A stretch of DNA of 64,000 bases, from positions 1 through 64,000 of the forward strand of contig NZ_JAPNLH010000010.1 in assembly GCF_026627425.1 (NCBI RefSeq), given 5' to 3'. This DNA is from Arthrobacter endolithicus (lineage in GTDB: Bacteria; Actinomycetota; Actinomycetes; Actinomycetales; Micrococcaceae). Of this stretch, positions 428 through 47,209 are shown one piece after another; position 1 is the stretch's first letter, and every line of letters starts with the position of its first letter. A model generated the notes under the pieces. It ran no database searches and was not told where the DNA came from. It saw only the letters and a list, made by a program, of their open reading frames with translations. The position numbers were made by a program, and so were the translations under genes.

Positions 428-1330
428 ATGAGCACCTTACTTTTAGCGGCCCCGCCCACCGTCGGCCTGTGGCAGGGACCAATTCGGCAGACAACCGCAC
501 AGCCGGTACCAGTAGACTTGGCCCTGATGAATAGCACCGAGCATGCCGACACGCTGGCCACCGGAGACGATGCGGAAACGGCTCCCGAGCTGACTCCTGC
601 GCAGCTGGCCGAGGGGTCCGTCGATGTCGCCACGGAGACGGCGGCCGCGCGCCGCATCCGGTTCGAACGCGACGCCATGCAGTACGTGGATCAGTTGTAT
701 TCAGCGGCCATGCGGATGGCCCGAAACCCCTCGGACGCCGAGGACCTGGTGCAGGAGGCCTACACCAAAGCGTTTTCCGCGTTCCACCAATACCGCCCCG
801 GGACCAATCTCAAGGCGTGGTTGTACCGTATCCTCACCAACACTTACATCAACCTTTACCGCAAACGCCAGCGGGAGCCATTGCAGTCCAATTCGGACCA
901 GGTGGAGGACTGGCAGCTGGCAAGGGCCGAGTCACATACTTCCCGCGGGCTGCGCTCGGCCGAGGCTGAGGCGATGGACCATCTGCCGGACAATGATGTG
1001 AAACGTGCGCTGCAGTCCATCCCGGAGGAGTTCAGACTGGCAGTCTATTTTGCAGACGTTGAGGGTTTTGCGTACAAAGAGATCTCGGAAATCATGAACA
1101 CGCCGATCGGCACCGTTATGTCCCGGCTGCACCGCGGGCGCAAACTGCTGCGGGACATGCTTGCCGATTATGCGCAGGAGCGCGGCTTCCGTGCAAATGG
1201 TCCCGATTCGGCAGGTAAAACTGCGACCGCGGACGCCCAGAGCGCAAATACCGTTGCGGCCTCACCCGCCGTTGCGCCGGTGAACACCGTCAGCGGTACG
1301 GGAAGTAATGATCAGGAGAAAAGTAAATGA
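428..1330 (+). CDS. sigR: ECF sigma factor SigR/SigH, thiol-oxidative stress response
   Basis: Group IV sigma factor. Region 2 is visible as [20 protein letters not shown] followed by [14 protein letters not shown], then [20 protein letters not shown]; region 4 as [20 protein letters not shown] and [17 protein letters not shown], all close to Streptomyces SigR. About 77 residues precede region 2, against about 30 in ordinary SigR, resembling the long unstable SigR' isoform. The ATG has a strong GGGGAAGGA site; a later in-frame ATG (527) has only a weak one. The stop overlaps the anti-sigma gene by ATGA, so the two are translationally coupled. The C-terminal 50 residues are Ala/Thr/Asn-rich and probably disordered. 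Confidence 0.95.
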
Positions 1331-1587
1331 GCGACTGCCGGAGTTTAGGTGATTGCGACGACTCGCGCATGGTGCGGATCTATGAATATCTGGACGGTGC
1401 GCTGTCCTGTGACGACTTGGCCGAAATCAAGCAGCACCTGGACGGCTGCCCGGACTGTGCTCAGGATTATGACTTGGAGTGTGTGATCCGTACCGTGGTC
1501 AGGCGCTCCTGTAAGGAAGCGGCGCCGGAAAACCTCAAGGCCGCCATCCTGGAAAGAATCCACGGCAGCCGGGCCGCCCAAGTCTAG
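1327..1587 (+). CDS. rsrA: Zinc-binding redox anti-sigma factor RsrA
   Basis: An 86-residue ZAS-family anti-sigma factor. It carries H37-x3-C41-x2-C44 (HLDGCPDC) with an upstream C10 and a downstream C62, closely matching the zinc and disulfide cysteine layout of Streptomyces RsrA (C11, H37, C41, C44, C61/62). In that family oxidation forms a disulfide, releases zinc and frees SigR. Translation is coupled to sigR by the ATGA overlap. Its stop codon shares the palindrome CTAG with the stop of the convergent globin gene. Confidence 0.92.
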
Positions 1588-42999: not shown

Positions 43000-43617
43000 C
43001 TATTGCAGAACGGTGCCGGAGGAATGCACCACCGTTCCGGAGCTTTGCGTACGGCCGCTGACATCAATCTGCAGCCGGCTCTTCTGCAACGTTGTCTCCA
43101 ACGCCTTGGCCAGATCCGGCAGGGTGGACGTACGAATCCGCGCGATGACGTCCTGAACGTCAGCGCGGTCATTGACCGTCACCTTCAGGGTCAGGTCCGG
43201 ATCTGTGGCCGTTCCGCGCAGTAGTGCCGAGGAGGTGACAACGCCCGGCAGTGTATTGATCTGGTTTTCCACGGCCGTGGCCAGGACGGAAGGGTCACAG
43301 ACGGTGAAACCCTGCGCACCGTCGTGGTGCAGCCGGTAGGCATCCGCGGCGTTTTTCCGTGGAATCTGTGCCAGCATCCACAGCAGGCCCAGCAGGCCCA
43401 CAATGACCCCTGCGAGCAATACCACGACCGCTACCCACTGCGGAGACGTGGCTGAGTGCAGGTCTGAGGTAACAACTCGGTCCGAGGAAGGAGCAGTGTT
43501 GGCCAGGCTATGGAGTTCTCCGCTGGCCTGCAGGAGCGCAGCGATGCCGGCAACCAGGACAATGATTCCTAGAATTGTCAGCCAAGTGCGGTTCAGAGTT
43601 CCGGCTGTTTGTCTCAT
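43000..43617 (-). CDS. amaP: AmaP-like (Asp23 membrane anchor) protein
   Basis: 205 residues. Two membrane helices (WLTILGIIVLVAGIAALLQA and VAVVVLLAGVIVGLLGLLWM) form a hairpin, followed by an Asp23-related soluble domain (AVENQINTLPGVVTSSALLR, DPDLTLKVTVNDRADVQDVI). In Staphylococcus AmaP anchors Asp23 at the membrane; the same role is inferred. AAGGAACG precedes the ATG. Only about 20 nt separate it from the DUF2382 gene after it. Confidence 0.75.
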   Translation of the reverse strand: MRQTAGTLNRTWLTILGIIVLVAGIAALLQASGELHSLANTAPSSDRVVTSDLHSATSPQWVAVVVLLAGVIVGLLGLLWMLAQIPRKNAADAYRLHHDGAQGFTVCDPSVLATAVENQINTLPGVVTSSALLRGTATDPDLTLKVTVNDRADVQDVIARIRTSTLPDLAKALETTLQKSRLQIDVSGRTQSSGTVVHSSGTVLQ

Positions 43618-43662: not shown

Positions 43663-44241
43663 TCAGTCCTTGGAGTGGACCGTGGCGCTCACGCGCGGAA
43701 GCGGGTCAAGCCCTGCGGCTTCGAGGCGCTCCCTGACCGATTCTGTGATCCTCGTCTGCAAATCACCGGTTTCGCGCAGATTGGTGCTGACGTTCAGGTG
43801 TACGCGCTTGCTGGTGGCCGTCGCGGTGGCGGAGCTCACGCCGTCGATCCCCCCGCACCGCGCCCTGGCGAGGTGGGCTACCGCACGTCGGGTCATCACG
43901 GTCTCTTGCTCCTGCACCGGCGCTTGGTCAGAACCATCGGAACCGCGGACCGGGAGGGCACTGAAAGCGCCGGGCACGATCGCGCACAACAAAAGAATCA
44001 AGCCCACGACGACGGCGCCGGCTCCTATGCCCCACACCCCGGGACTGTTCCAGGTCAGCCCGGTTAGCAAGTCCCGGGGTCCCTGCAGGACCGTGGGCCA
44101 CGTACCGTTCATCAGTCTGGCGATTGTCAGCCAGACCAGGGTGACGCCGGTGGCCAAGAGTAAAATTCCCACGATCAGTGCCGGGACGGTCCGGCTGGGC
44201 CGGCGCCGCAAACTCGTAGATCGTCCGTCATGCCGACTCAC
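43663..44241 (-). CDS. DUF6286-like membrane protein
   Basis: 192 residues from the GTG that overlaps the Asp23 stop (GTGA) and follows GGAGG by 8 nt; a longer frame from 44286 would overlap by 49 nt. Two hydrophobic helices (VPALIVGILLLATGVTLVWL and GIGAGAVVVGLILLLCAIVP) and a C-terminal Asp23-like soluble domain (RRAVAHLARARCGGIDGVSS, VHLNVSTNLRETGDLQTRIT). Resembles the AmaP-like protein in design, so it may be a second anchor. Confidence 0.75.
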   Translation of the reverse strand: MSRHDGRSTSLRRRPSRTVPALIVGILLLATGVTLVWLTIARLMNGTWPTVLQGPRDLLTGLTWNSPGVWGIGAGAVVVGLILLLCAIVPGAFSALPVRGSDGSDQAPVQEQETVMTRRAVAHLARARCGGIDGVSSATATATSKRVHLNVSTNLRETGDLQTRITESVRERLEAAGLDPLPRVSATVHSKD

Positions 44242-44681
44242 AACAACCGCCTCCGCCCCGGCGCAGCTCCTTCGGTTGTCAACCATGCGACCTTGATATC
44301 GACTTGGCGGACCTCAACACCGGTCAGTTCCGTGACCCTGCCCCTGATCCGCTGCCGCAGATCCTCGGTGGCCTGGCGCAATGGAGTCGGGTACAACAGC
44401 CCGACCTCAACACTCACCGTGGCAATGTTCCCGCTCAGCTCAACGGAAGCTTTAGGCCGGGCAGACAAATCCGCGTGGGCGCCAATTCCGAGAAATCCTC
44501 CGGACGAGCCCCCGGCCGAGGTTTCATCGCTGGCGACCTGGCCGGCAATTTTCTCGATCACCCTGTTTGCCAGCACGGTGTGGCCCCGGGAGCCGAGGTC
44601 GTCACCGCCGCTGCCAAAATCTGCACCGGCGTCGTCGTCGACCGTGGTGAGCGGCGGTGCGTAGGCGCCCTGCAGGTTCAT
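44238..44681 (-). CDS. Asp23/Gls24 family envelope stress protein
   Basis: 147 residues. HTVLANRVIEKIAGQVASDE, then a Gly-rich loop, then ASVELSGNIATVSVEVGLLY and LRQATEDLRQRIRGRVTELT match the Asp23 fold (alkaline shock protein). Soluble, likely peripheral at the membrane. Overlaps the neighbouring genes on both sides by four bases, the mark of a compact operon. Confidence 0.85.
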   Translation of the reverse strand: MNLQGAYAPPLTTVDDDAGADFGSGGDDLGSRGHTVLANRVIEKIAGQVASDETSAGGSSGGFLGIGAHADLSARPKASVELSGNIATVSVEVGLLYPTPLRQATEDLRQRIRGRVTELTGVEVRQVDIKVAWLTTEGAAPGRRRLL

Positions 44682-44857
44682 CGGCTCGTTGCCTTACCGA
44701 ACAGGGCTGCCATGTCGAGTTTGCCCTCCGCAACCCGGCCGACCACCAAACCGATGAAGCCCAGGACGATAGCGGACACCAGCGCCCACCACCCGCCGAA
44801 AGCTAAGACAATTCCCAGCACCAGACCTATTGTCAGGCACCAACGTGTAGTAGACAT
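44678..44857 (-). CDS. Small DUF2273-like membrane peptide
   Basis: 59 residues from the ATG 6 nt after AAAAGG; two earlier ATGs sit in or before that site. One or two hydrophobic segments (CLTIGLVLGIVLAFGGWWAL and VSAIVLGFIGLVVGRVAEGK) and a basic tail. DUF2273 peptides accompany Asp23 and AmaP in Firmicutes operons, supporting the assignment. Confidence 0.75.
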   Translation of the reverse strand: MSTTRWCLTIGLVLGIVLAFGGWWALVSAIVLGFIGLVVGRVAEGKLDMAALFGKATSR

Positions 44858-44889
44858 AGCCATCCTTTTCGTTCTCGGCATTACGGTCA

Positions 44890-44915
44890 CACCGGGCGGG
44901 ATTCCCCGCCCGGTG
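44890..44915. promoter_or_regulatory. Intercistronic hairpin inside the Asp23 operon
   Basis: CACCGGGCGGG and CCCGCCCGGTG pair perfectly around ATTC, between the first Asp23 gene and the DUF2273 gene. No T-run. It could raise expression of the first gene over the rest. Confidence 0.5.
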
Positions 44916-44923
44916 CGGTGGAC

Positions 44924-45427
44924 TTACTGAAGTTCGGTCTTCTGGTCCTGCTGGTCCTGCTGGTCATCGTCGGGGAGGTGCACATCGGTGACATTGATGT
45001 TCACTTCGATGACTTCCAGACCGGTGGCCCGCTCGACTGACTGGATGACGTTGCGGCGGATTCCCTGGCTGACATCCACCACGGAGGCTCCGTATTCCAC
45101 CACGATGGAGACATCGATGGCGGTCTGCCGTTCGCCCTTTTCCACGGATACACCGCCGCTGACGTTGGTCTGGGAACCGGGAATGCGCTCCGCCAGGGCG
45201 CTGAAGGCACGACGCCCGGCACTGCCCATGGCGTAGACGCCGGGAACCTCACGGGTGGCCATGCCGGCAAGCTTTTGCACCACGGTTTCCTCGATCGTGG
45301 TGTCCCCGCGGTCCGTATGCAGTGCGTCGTTCTTTTTCGGCTGTTCCTGCGGAGCGTTTCGCTTCTGCTCCTCAGGCGTGGCCATAACGCCGCTGGAACT
45401 TCCGGGGGTCTTCGTTGCCTCTGACAT
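44924..45427 (-). CDS. Asp23/Gls24 family envelope stress protein, operon head
   Basis: 167 residues from the ATG 9-10 nt after AAGGAGA; a nearer ATG lies only 1 nt from that site. After 45 polar residues comes an Asp23 domain: ETVVQKLAGMATREVPGVYA, ISVVVEYGASVVDVSQGIRR-like strand and helix, and LEVIEVNINVTDVHLPDDD. The tail is Asp/Gln-rich (DDQQDQQDQ). First gene of the minus-strand arm, 98 nt after a predicted ECF promoter start. Confidence 0.87.
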   Translation of the reverse strand: MSEATKTPGSSSGVMATPEEQKRNAPQEQPKKNDALHTDRGDTTIEETVVQKLAGMATREVPGVYAMGSAGRRAFSALAERIPGSQTNVSGGVSVEKGERQTAIDVSIVVEYGASVVDVSQGIRRNVIQSVERATGLEVIEVNINVTDVHLPDDDQQDQQDQKTELQ

Positions 45428-45532
45428 GGAGAACATCTCCTTCTGAAGGGAATAGTAATCGTGCTTACAAAGATAAAGACGAAGCCCACAGCCAAACGTC
45501 ACGCAAAACAGCAGATCTTTTTTTCCATCGGT

Positions 45533-45625: not shown

Positions 45626-46225
45626 ATGGAGCATTACGGACACGGCTACGAGCCGGAACCGGGCCTGGATGAAGGAAGTATTGTCGCCCGCGCGCAGGAT
45701 GGCGACCTCAGGGCGTTCGAATACCTGGTGAACTCCTATCAGGACCGTCTCTTCCGGCTGGCCTACCGCATGCTCAATGACCGCGGCGATGCCGAGGATG
45801 TGGTGCAGGACGCACTAACGGCCAGCTGGCGCGGCCTGGCAATGCTGCAGGACGTGCAGGCGTTCGGTGGCTGGGTCTATCGGCTGGCCACCAACAGATG
45901 CCTGGATGTTCTACGGAAACGTTCCACTCGAACCGAGCACATAACAGATCCGCAGGATATTCTTTCCATCAGCATGGACGGAGCTGGATCGGACCAGCTT
46001 GCTGACCCCGCCTACGAGGCCGAAAGGACCGCCCGCGACGACAGCCTCACGAGAGTGGTCAACACCCTCCCGCCGGAACAGCGTGCCTGTTGGCTGCTGC
46101 GGGAAATGCATGGTCGCAGCTATGCCGAAATCGGTGTAACACTGAAGATAAGCCCAGCGGCGGTGCGTGGACGGCTTGCCCGGGCACGGATCCAGATAGC
46201 GGAAGGGATGAGCGAATGGCGTTAG
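45626..46225 (+). CDS. ECF sigma factor of the Asp23 cluster
   Basis: 199 residues. Region 2: LVNSYQDRLFRLAYRMLNDR then GDAEDVVQDALTASWRGLAM; WVYRLATNRCLDVLRKRS closes it. Region 4: TLPPEQRACWLLREMHGRSY then AEIGVTLKISPAAVRGRLAR. SigE/SigK-like in layout, distinct from the SigR of this window. Its end overlaps the anti-sigma-like gene by 10 bases. Divergent from the Asp23 operon. Confidence 0.92.
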   Translation: MEHYGHGYEPEPGLDEGSIVARAQDGDLRAFEYLVNSYQDRLFRLAYRMLNDRGDAEDVVQDALTASWRGLAMLQDVQAFGGWVYRLATNRCLDVLRKRSTRTEHITDPQDILSISMDGAGSDQLADPAYEAERTARDDSLTRVVNTLPPEQRACWLLREMHGRSYAEIGVTLKISPAAVRGRLARARIQIAEGMSEWR

Positions 46226-46821
46226 ACGACGAACCGCGCTTGGGCTGCGGACGAAGCATCGACCGGATTTGGACCACCGTTGACCAGCCACCCAATGCGC
46301 ACGAACAAACGTGCGGACAATGCCAGGCGGCCAGGTCGCGGCTGAGAAGCCTCAGGGAGGCAACCCAATCACTGCGCGAAAGCGACGTTCACAATACAGA
46401 CCTGAAGCCGCGCAGCGGCGTCAAATCCAGCATCATGGATGTCGCCCGGGCAGAGATCCGACGCAGCAGGAGGATCCTCCTGGCCAGCAATGGCAACGGC
46501 ACAACGGAGATCAGCGAGCAGGCGTTGAGCGCAGTCATCCGGTTGGCAGCTGCGGAGGTTCACGGGATTCATGCGCGGCGATGCCGTATCGAAATAGCCT
46601 CCGCCAGTTCCGACAGCTCCGCCGGCGATCGTCCCTCCGGATATCCAGGCCTCGTCGGGTCTCACCTCGTCATTGGTCTTCGGGTTGCAGTCGCCCCGGA
46701 CATCAATATCCCCCGAACAGTTGAGTCGTTGCGGCAACGGATCATCACTGCCGTTCCGGCCGGCGTCGGTATCAGCGCCGGGACAGTCAACCTCACAGTG
46801 GAGGATCTTTACGATGTCTGA
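46216..46821 (+). CDS. Zinc anti-sigma motif fused to an Asp23-like domain
   Basis: 201 residues from the ATG inside the end of the sigma gene. Residues 1-60 have H29-x3-C33-x2-C36 (HEQTCGQC) plus C11, the HxxxCxxC signature of ZAS anti-sigma factors. Residues 95-201 are Asp23-like: ISEQALSAVIRLAAAEVHGI, LVIGLRVAVAPDINIPRTVE and GISAGTVNLTVEDLYDV. No membrane helix. It lies where an anti-sigma factor is expected. A link that lets Asp23-type assembly at the envelope control the sigma factor is inferred. The next gene starts inside its 3' end. Confidence 0.75.
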   Translation: MALDDEPRLGCGRSIDRIWTTVDQPPNAHEQTCGQCQAARSRLRSLREATQSLRESDVHNTDLKPRSGVKSSIMDVARAEIRRSRRILLASNGNGTTEISEQALSAVIRLAAAEVHGIHARRCRIEIASASSDSSAGDRPSGYPGLVGSHLVIGLRVAVAPDINIPRTVESLRQRIITAVPAGVGISAGTVNLTVEDLYDV

Positions 46822-47209
46822 AATTCCGCTCCAAAGCCAGGTCATCACGAGCAAACTGGTCGCCTCCCTCGCCGCCCGCACAGCGCTGGAGACCCCCGGT
46901 GTCCTCAGGCTCGAGCCCACCGTCCAAGGATTCCTGGCCCGGCTCGGTCCTGCCGCACTGCAGCGACTCTACAATCCGGCCAGCCAGGACGGCACCTACC
47001 GGGACGACGGCGTTCGAGTCAGCATCAACGACAACGTCGCCCTGGTCCATCTCGATATAGCTACCGACATCGCCTACACGGCCCTGAACGTTGCTGAAAT
47101 AGTGCAGCAACGAGTACGCGAGAACATCGGCCACACCGGTCTGGCCGTGGGCCCGGTCGACGTCACCATTCTGGCAATAGAGCCTCCACCACGGGCACGA
47201 GTCAGGTAG
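46814..47209 (+). CDS. Asp23-like protein of the sigma operon
   Basis: 131 residues from the ATG 8 nt after GGAGGA, overlapping the previous gene by 8 bases; longer upstream frames lack a site. VITSKLVASLAARTALETPG, then VRVSINDNVALVHLDIATDI and LNVAEIVQQRVRENIGHTGL then VDVTILAI match the Asp23 pattern. Unlike typical members, a middle segment around GFLARLGPAALQRLYNP is inserted. Soluble. Confidence 0.78.
   Translation: MSEIPLQSQVITSKLVASLAARTALETPGVLRLEPTVQGFLARLGPAALQRLYNPASQDGTYRDDGVRVSINDNVALVHLDIATDIAYTALNVAEIVQQRVRENIGHTGLAVGPVDVTILAIEPPPRARVR

Follow-up and report, generated by a model that had tools for sequence, protein, structure and literature searches.

What does a protein do that joins a zinc-motif domain to an Asp23 domain, is encoded directly behind an ECF sigma factor gene, and lies beside an operon for Asp23- and AmaP-like proteins? 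The question is raised by a gene at 46216-46821 of a 64,000-nucleotide stretch of Arthrobacter endolithicus DNA (contig NZ_JAPNLH010000010.1, positions 1 to 64,000), the whole of which is referred to here as the window. The molecular function of Asp23 is called unclear in the sections of PMC6954212 drawn on here, which report that in Staphylococcus aureus Asp23 and its membrane anchor AmaP are encoded in one operon, that AmaP holds Asp23 at the membrane, and that loss of either protein leads to strong induction of the cell wall stress response. In Streptomyces venezuelae an Asp23/Gls24 gene, which may or may not belong to a module such as the one described here, is down-regulated after ethanol shock (PMC9769785, in part).

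Sigma factors ECF286 (S. rimosus) and ECF292 (Mycolicibacterium cosmeticum) are listed in a 2022 review as adjoining soluble Asp23-family predicted anti-sigma factors, with the mechanism unknown (PMC8999054, in part, citing Casas-Pastor 2021), and in the window too an ECF sigma gene adjoins a soluble protein of this family. This kind of anti-sigma factor is thus already in print as a prediction, and the statement in a preliminary description of the window that anti-sigma factors with Asp23 domains had not been described is partly wrong. The parts of the review consulted, however, name no zinc domain, promoter or mechanism for ECF286 and ECF292, and in the literature consulted, short of Casas-Pastor 2021 and its supplement, we found no report of a zinc domain, promoter or regulon for such pairs. 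The relevant features of the window are as follows.

428-1330 and 1327-1587, plus strand: second ECF sigma factor/zinc anti-sigma factor pair, SigR/RsrA-like; its anti-sigma factor is the comparison family used here
43000-43617, minus strand: AmaP-like protein (47.9 bits, below the NCBIfam cut-off of 55)
43663-44286, minus strand: DUF6286 protein (96.7 bits), with a weak AmaP-like match (23.6 bits against a cut-off of 55)
44238-44681, minus strand: asp23B, which encodes a second Asp23 protein in the operon (32.9 bits)
44678-44890, minus strand: small membrane-type protein with a weak DUF2273-like match (13.9 bits against a cut-off of 25.4)
44924-45427, minus strand: asp23A, full Asp23 protein and first gene of the divergent operon (Pfam 100.9 bits, scored on 44924-45430; start set by eye from an AAGGAG sequence)
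45477-45503, minus strand: CGTGAC-N16-CGTC(T), predicted as the sigma-dependent promoter for the asp23 operon; it lies 76 nt ahead of the asp23A start adopted here
45626-46225, plus strand: ECF sigma factor with regions 2 and 4; its stop overlaps the start of the next gene
46216-46821, plus strand: candidate anti-sigma factor of 201 aa, with a ZAS-like domain at about 1-84 (C11, H29, C33, C36) and an Asp23 domain at 94-198
46814-47209, plus strand: third gene (P0003), a divergent Asp23-like protein (Pfam 25.8 bits, below the cut-off of 28), its start overlapping the stop of the candidate anti-sigma gene

Two DUF2382 proteins are also part of the divergent asp23 operon. An ORF resembling P0003 stands behind the anti-sigma gene in 16 of 48 loci of the same family, with weak resemblance in four more. 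A near-copy of asp23A lies elsewhere in the same genome (L001 1315-1884, at C2:117967), has the same promoter motif, and is followed, judged by eye, by DUF2382-like ORFs. Its leader and protein are so close to asp23A that it probably arose by duplication and would not support the motif independently.

Translation of 46216-46821 agrees exactly with the motif H29-x3-C33-x2-C36 that had been placed at its N-terminus, and it holds an extra cysteine at position 11 that was absent from the first description of the motif. The C-terminal domain of Asp23 type, also described before, is matched by Pfam PF03780 over residues 94-198 at 28.8 bits, just above the curated cut-off of 28; this family matches 35 of the 48 family members at E 0.1 or better, and the one NCBIfam match of the window protein is to AmaP over residues 83-192, and is weak (14.6 bits). 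The reported overlap with the sigma gene is found as well, the start codon at 46216 lying inside 45626-46225 with 10 nt shared, and so is the soluble character of the protein, which has no likely membrane span (highest 19-residue Kyte-Doolittle mean 1.37). The same mean exceeds 1.6 in 9 of 148 homologues, with a maximum of 2.14. A further cysteine within the Asp23 domain, C123 (46582-46584), is present in 32/47, 7/8 and 25/25 homologues of three sets, all counted outside the set that was retrieved by a pattern containing C123; it is without counterpart at that place in asp23A.

An AlphaFold2 model of the full protein (mean pLDDT 82, pTM 0.57) has predicted helices at 15-20, 28-32, 34-58 and 67-83 followed by an alpha/beta domain, and the four-helix N-terminus was also modelled alone. 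A fold search with the full model matched the Asp23 part, the best matches being MamM C-terminal domains (Foldseek E 3.4e-4); superposition of a MamM C-terminal domain on the predicted fold of 46507-46818 gives Z 9.5 and an rmsd of 1.6 over 77 residues. We read this as similarity of fold and no more.

Class I ZAS proteins are defined by an Hx3Cx2C motif (PMC7406223, in part), which in the model of the window protein spans predicted helices 2 and 3 (28-32 and 34-58). Comparison by hhalign of an N-terminal profile (A3; 31 domains, every row with the motif) with an RsrA-type profile (A4), derived from the RsrA-like gene that the window has at 1327-1587, gave probability 89, E 2.3e-6 and a score of 34.5, with the zinc-motif positions in register; the best control score in 50 column-shuffled profiles was 19.5, and the reversed profile scored 16.4. 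Against all PDB sequences the N-terminal profile returned 10 rows at E up to 10, of which the top three are ECF anti-sigma factors. All of these matches are weak (DdvA, E 0.019; 3hug_B, which we take to be RslA, E 0.023; RsiW, E 0.12), and an unrelated zinc finger follows closely behind at E 0.14. Pfam zf-HC2 matched none of the 48 family members at E 0.1, and with the N-terminal model on its own, fold searching returned no anti-sigma structure and nothing at E <5.

On the profile evidence we regard the N-terminal domain as distantly related to the zinc anti-sigma domains of RsrA type: the motif lies across helices 2 and 3, the domain is related to ZAS domains, and an ECF sigma gene is adjacent. 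The family also has a conserved helix-4-like segment, IMxxxRxExR. The anti-sigma reading given in the preliminary description stands in so far as a ZAS-type domain is fused to Asp23, its claim to novelty not being supported in the form in which it was put, and an anti-sigma role for the protein appears well supported by its sequence. The protein shares with RsrA the order of the zinc motif, the predicted helical layout and the place behind an ECF sigma gene, but RsrA has no Asp23 domain. A parallel in architecture is ChrR of Rhodobacter sphaeroides, in which an N-terminal ZAS domain and a separate C-terminal sensor are joined in one soluble protein (PMC8999054, in part), although the sensor of ChrR is cupin-like and that of the window protein is an Asp23 domain.

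The fusion is also found beside ECF genes elsewhere, a check that had been proposed earlier. Genomes of the same family have 55 matching places in 49 of 149 genomes, of which 50 loci were taken; the five others are weak (E 2.6e-4 to 9.4e-4, matching only about residues 77-199). The matched gene stands directly behind an ECF sigma ORF in 48 of the 50 loci, with overlaps of 10 nt in 41 pairs and 4 nt in seven (starts chosen by script). In the remaining two (L045 and L055) it is an ordinary Asp23 gene that matches; some 2 kb away there is a sigma ORF accompanied by an anti-sigma-like frame, cut by the locus end. A sample of the phylum, with eight candidates scored per genome, gave a match in 166 of 396 genomes, including at least eight places of nearly full length besides the window's own; the motif is missing from two of these eight (L060 and L061). 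Most other matches listed from this sample are of the Asp23 part, and one (G160) is of the N-terminal part only. In a genus of large genomes that we take for Streptomyces, 63 of 81 genomes have a match; of 30 loci, 26 (the query's own included) have a full-length protein with the motif as well as a sigma gene, and four are Asp23 genes without sigma; the sigma gene is directly upstream in 25/25 full-length loci checked. In named genomes, a search pattern taken from the Asp23 part gave 96 relatives, of which 80 loci were kept, 77 of them from Streptomyces. Here the sigma gene is upstream in 77/80, the other three matches starting within 160 nt of the locus end, and Hx3Cx2C is present in 75/80.

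Non-conservation of the Cys/His residues, which had been named as a finding that would count against the anti-sigma reading, did not occur. An alignment with the protein from the window shows all of C11, H29, C33 and C36 in 140 of 148 distinct homologues that lie next to sigma genes in Actinomycetota (L282, L045 and L055 being outside this alignment). By set the four ligands are complete in 42/47, 6/8, 25/25 and 67/68, the last set having been retrieved by the Asp23-part pattern with the zinc motif not used; for Streptomyces-type rows (sets strepG and strepC) the count is 92 of 93 distinct rows. The eight exceptions comprise three H-to-Y changes, one C33-to-R change and four proteins with most or all ligands gone; C33 is lost in L237. 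Sigma genes are retained beside proteins with ligands mostly or wholly lost (L052, L054, L060, L061 and the short proteins of Mycobacterium-like genomes), so the pairing does not require zinc. A rough sigma factor tree (FastTree, 72 rows, several long branches, with the sigma factor of the RsrA-like pair as a distant outgroup) implies four changes of zinc state.

In Mycobacterium-like loci (genus inferred) a sigma gene is followed by a short Asp23 protein lacking the zinc motif, in the same overlap style: L127 5048-5482 (minus), L128 8175-8645 (plus) and L129 5160-5594 (minus). Judged by lineage, the Streptomyces-type pairs with zinc and these three zinc-free pairs may be ECF286 and ECF292, respectively.

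What might the sigma factor transcribe? In each of 15 loci of 18 kb, chosen among loci with an anti-sigma gene, an asp23 operon adjoins the pair, divergent in 11 and co-directional in four. The canonical ECF promoter GGAAC-N-CGT was looked for in 108 rows and set aside, its four occurrences (L008, L026, L062 and the repeat L145) being unconvincing. When spaced words ahead of asp23A were counted without bias, CGTGA-N17-CGTC emerged instead, in 16 of 41 loci, against 4 or 5 for the best word pair in five shuffles. A looser form (spacing of 16-18 nt, YGTC) was counted in the mainly Micrococcaceae-type set, on the very loci of its discovery: it precedes asp23A in 30 of 41 rows and is absent from 11; the 30 include L144, a repeat of L058, without which the count is 29/40. 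Start positions chosen by script place 26 of the 30 sites 70-80 nt before asp23A. The looser motif is also present in 7/23 Streptomyces-type loci, in 0/5 Mycobacterium-type loci, and in 2/18 asp23 genes without an adjacent pair, namely the duplicate L001 and L045, this last class being a loose one in which L045, L055 and L082 have a sigma ORF in the locus. Over all sets, controls gave 24/1740 in shuffles and 5/87 on the opposite strand. Rows removed before these counts were own-genome repeats (L002, L005-L007), a repeat of the query (L087) and further repeats (L117-L125, L131-L136, L138-L141, L143 and L145).

Only a longer pattern is specific. Across the whole genome of the window, CGTGAC-N15-19-CGTCT is not enriched (16 sites against 21 for the reversed control). 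The strict form CGTGASGWWT-N10-13-CGTCTKTA has 13 sites in 20 whole genomes that include the discovery loci, spread over 11 of the 20 and absent from nine; by coordinates 12 of the 13 are at the sigma/asp23 locus and one is elsewhere in genome G001, and the reversed pattern has none. Flanks were viewed for L192, L195, L203 and L199. The G001 site (L199, about 1501-1530, minus strand) is near a dehydrogenase-like ORF in a locus in which no asp23 gene was found, and is either a chance occurrence or a further member of the regulon.

In named genomes, CGTRA-N16-18-YGTC precedes asp23A in 28 of 62 loci, nearly all Streptomyces (shuffled 48/3100, 1.5%), and the sigma gene in 30 of 77 (shuffled 107/3850, 2.8%), with both genes preceded by it in 17/62. 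Counts on the opposite strand are high (33/62 for asp23A and 31/77 for sigma), because the asp23A and sigma promoters face each other in one gap. The A variant in CGTRA was prompted by a plasmid copy, so that this count is partly refinement. That copy is on NZ_CP109253.1, a 358-kb linear plasmid of Streptomyces anulatus typed as mobilizable, which carries an asp23/sigma/zinc-Asp23 module (L285 2723-4561) with CGTAACG-type sites before asp23 and sigma; the annotation of the relative that it encodes says no more than 'Asp23/Gls24 family envelope stress response protein'. The sigma gene of the window has no copy of the motif upstream. Before sigma genes the motif occurs in 7 of 85 loci, all of them L058, L059 or Streptomyces-type, and the sigma genes of the Micrococcaceae-type set show none, so autoregulation looks lineage-dependent.

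We propose that the protein at 46216-46821 is a soluble class I ZAS anti-sigma factor with its Asp23 domain as a sensor or docking part, and that the adjacent asp23/AmaP-like operon is the main target of the sigma factor, a reading to which we give a probability of about 0.8. Support at the sequence level comes from conservation, synteny, gene overlap, distant ZAS homology and the promoter motif; what we infer is that the protein binds zinc and the sigma factor, that the 45626-46225 sigma factor uses the promoter, and that the scaffold is the signal. The N-terminal helices with C11, H29, C33 and C36 would hold the ECF sigma factor, and free sigma factor would, as the promoter suggests, transcribe the asp23 operon and in many Streptomyces the sigma gene too. 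The C-terminal domain would contact an Asp23/AmaP-like scaffold under the membrane, as its shared domain and the synteny suggest, and the amount or state of the scaffold would set how tightly the anti-sigma factor grips the sigma factor. S. aureus likewise has Asp23 and AmaP-type genes together in one operon; the parts of PMC6954212 consulted mention no dedicated ECF pair there, whereas the operon here adjoins its own sigma factor and an anti-sigma factor with an Asp23 domain. The favoured sign is negative feedback, in which an intact scaffold would keep the sigma factor off, by analogy with the stress response that follows loss of Asp23 or AmaP in S. aureus.

In one small alignment judged by eye, the Asp23 domain of the anti-sigma factor departs from the conserved asp23A core in the middle segment, which is either divergent there or absent, and this apparent partial loss would suit a reader of the scaffold over a builder of it. 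An anti-sigma factor whose version of the scaffold protein is divergent and perhaps unable to polymerise could be a product-assembly sensor that reads the Asp23/AmaP-like layer and holds the scaffold at a set level. We advance this tentatively, at somewhat less than even odds.

The preliminary description raised the possibility of titration, in which freshly synthesised Asp23 proteins would occupy the Asp23 domain and strip the anti-sigma factor from the sigma factor. Filaments formed by S. aureus Asp23 in vitro (PMC6954212, in part) and the presence of asp23 genes next to the pair in all 15 loci are in keeping with this. Since Asp23 is itself an apparent product of the sigma factor, however, such titration would be a switch-like positive feedback that locks the system on unless otherwise limited, and co-assembly is not assured for a domain that seems to lack part of the asp23A core. 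We think titration unlikely; co-inhibition, and with it homeostasis, fits at least as well.

RsrA is a thiol switch, and an analogous redox or metal switch is conceivable here, with oxidation or loss of zinc at C11/H29/C33/C36 freeing the sigma factor and the Asp23 domain merely placing or stabilising the protein. The register with the RsrA family and the retention of C123 in 64 of 80 homologues of the three sets counted above agree with it, and soluble ZAS proteins are often tied to redox sensing, but zinc motifs can also be structural, as in RsiW (both PMC7406223, in part). The one clear predicted target is moreover the asp23 operon and not thiol or oxidant genes, and ligand-free homologues persist beside the same kind of sigma factor, which argues against an obligatory zinc signal. 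Zinc in the window protein may be structural or redox-active, and we consider such a switch as the main mode of control rather doubtful. That the protein is no anti-sigma factor at all, and is instead a small zinc-stabilised Asp23 protein, a sigma factor product or an accessory subunit whose co-transcription serves dosage alone, would accord with the empty fold search for the N-terminus. It seems very improbable given the relation of that domain to ZAS domains, the translational overlap with sigma in 48/48 pairs of the first set and the helix-4-like segment.

On the reading that we prefer, an Asp23-bearing anti-sigma factor with the asp23 operon as the clearest target of its sigma factor, the pair would provide a reporter and a genetic handle on what Asp23 responds to in Actinomycetota. 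Predicted systems of the ECF286/ECF292 type gain a concrete candidate for the sigma-binding domain together with a candidate target promoter, and the arrangement hints at how some soil bacteria may tune a poorly understood cell-envelope scaffold.
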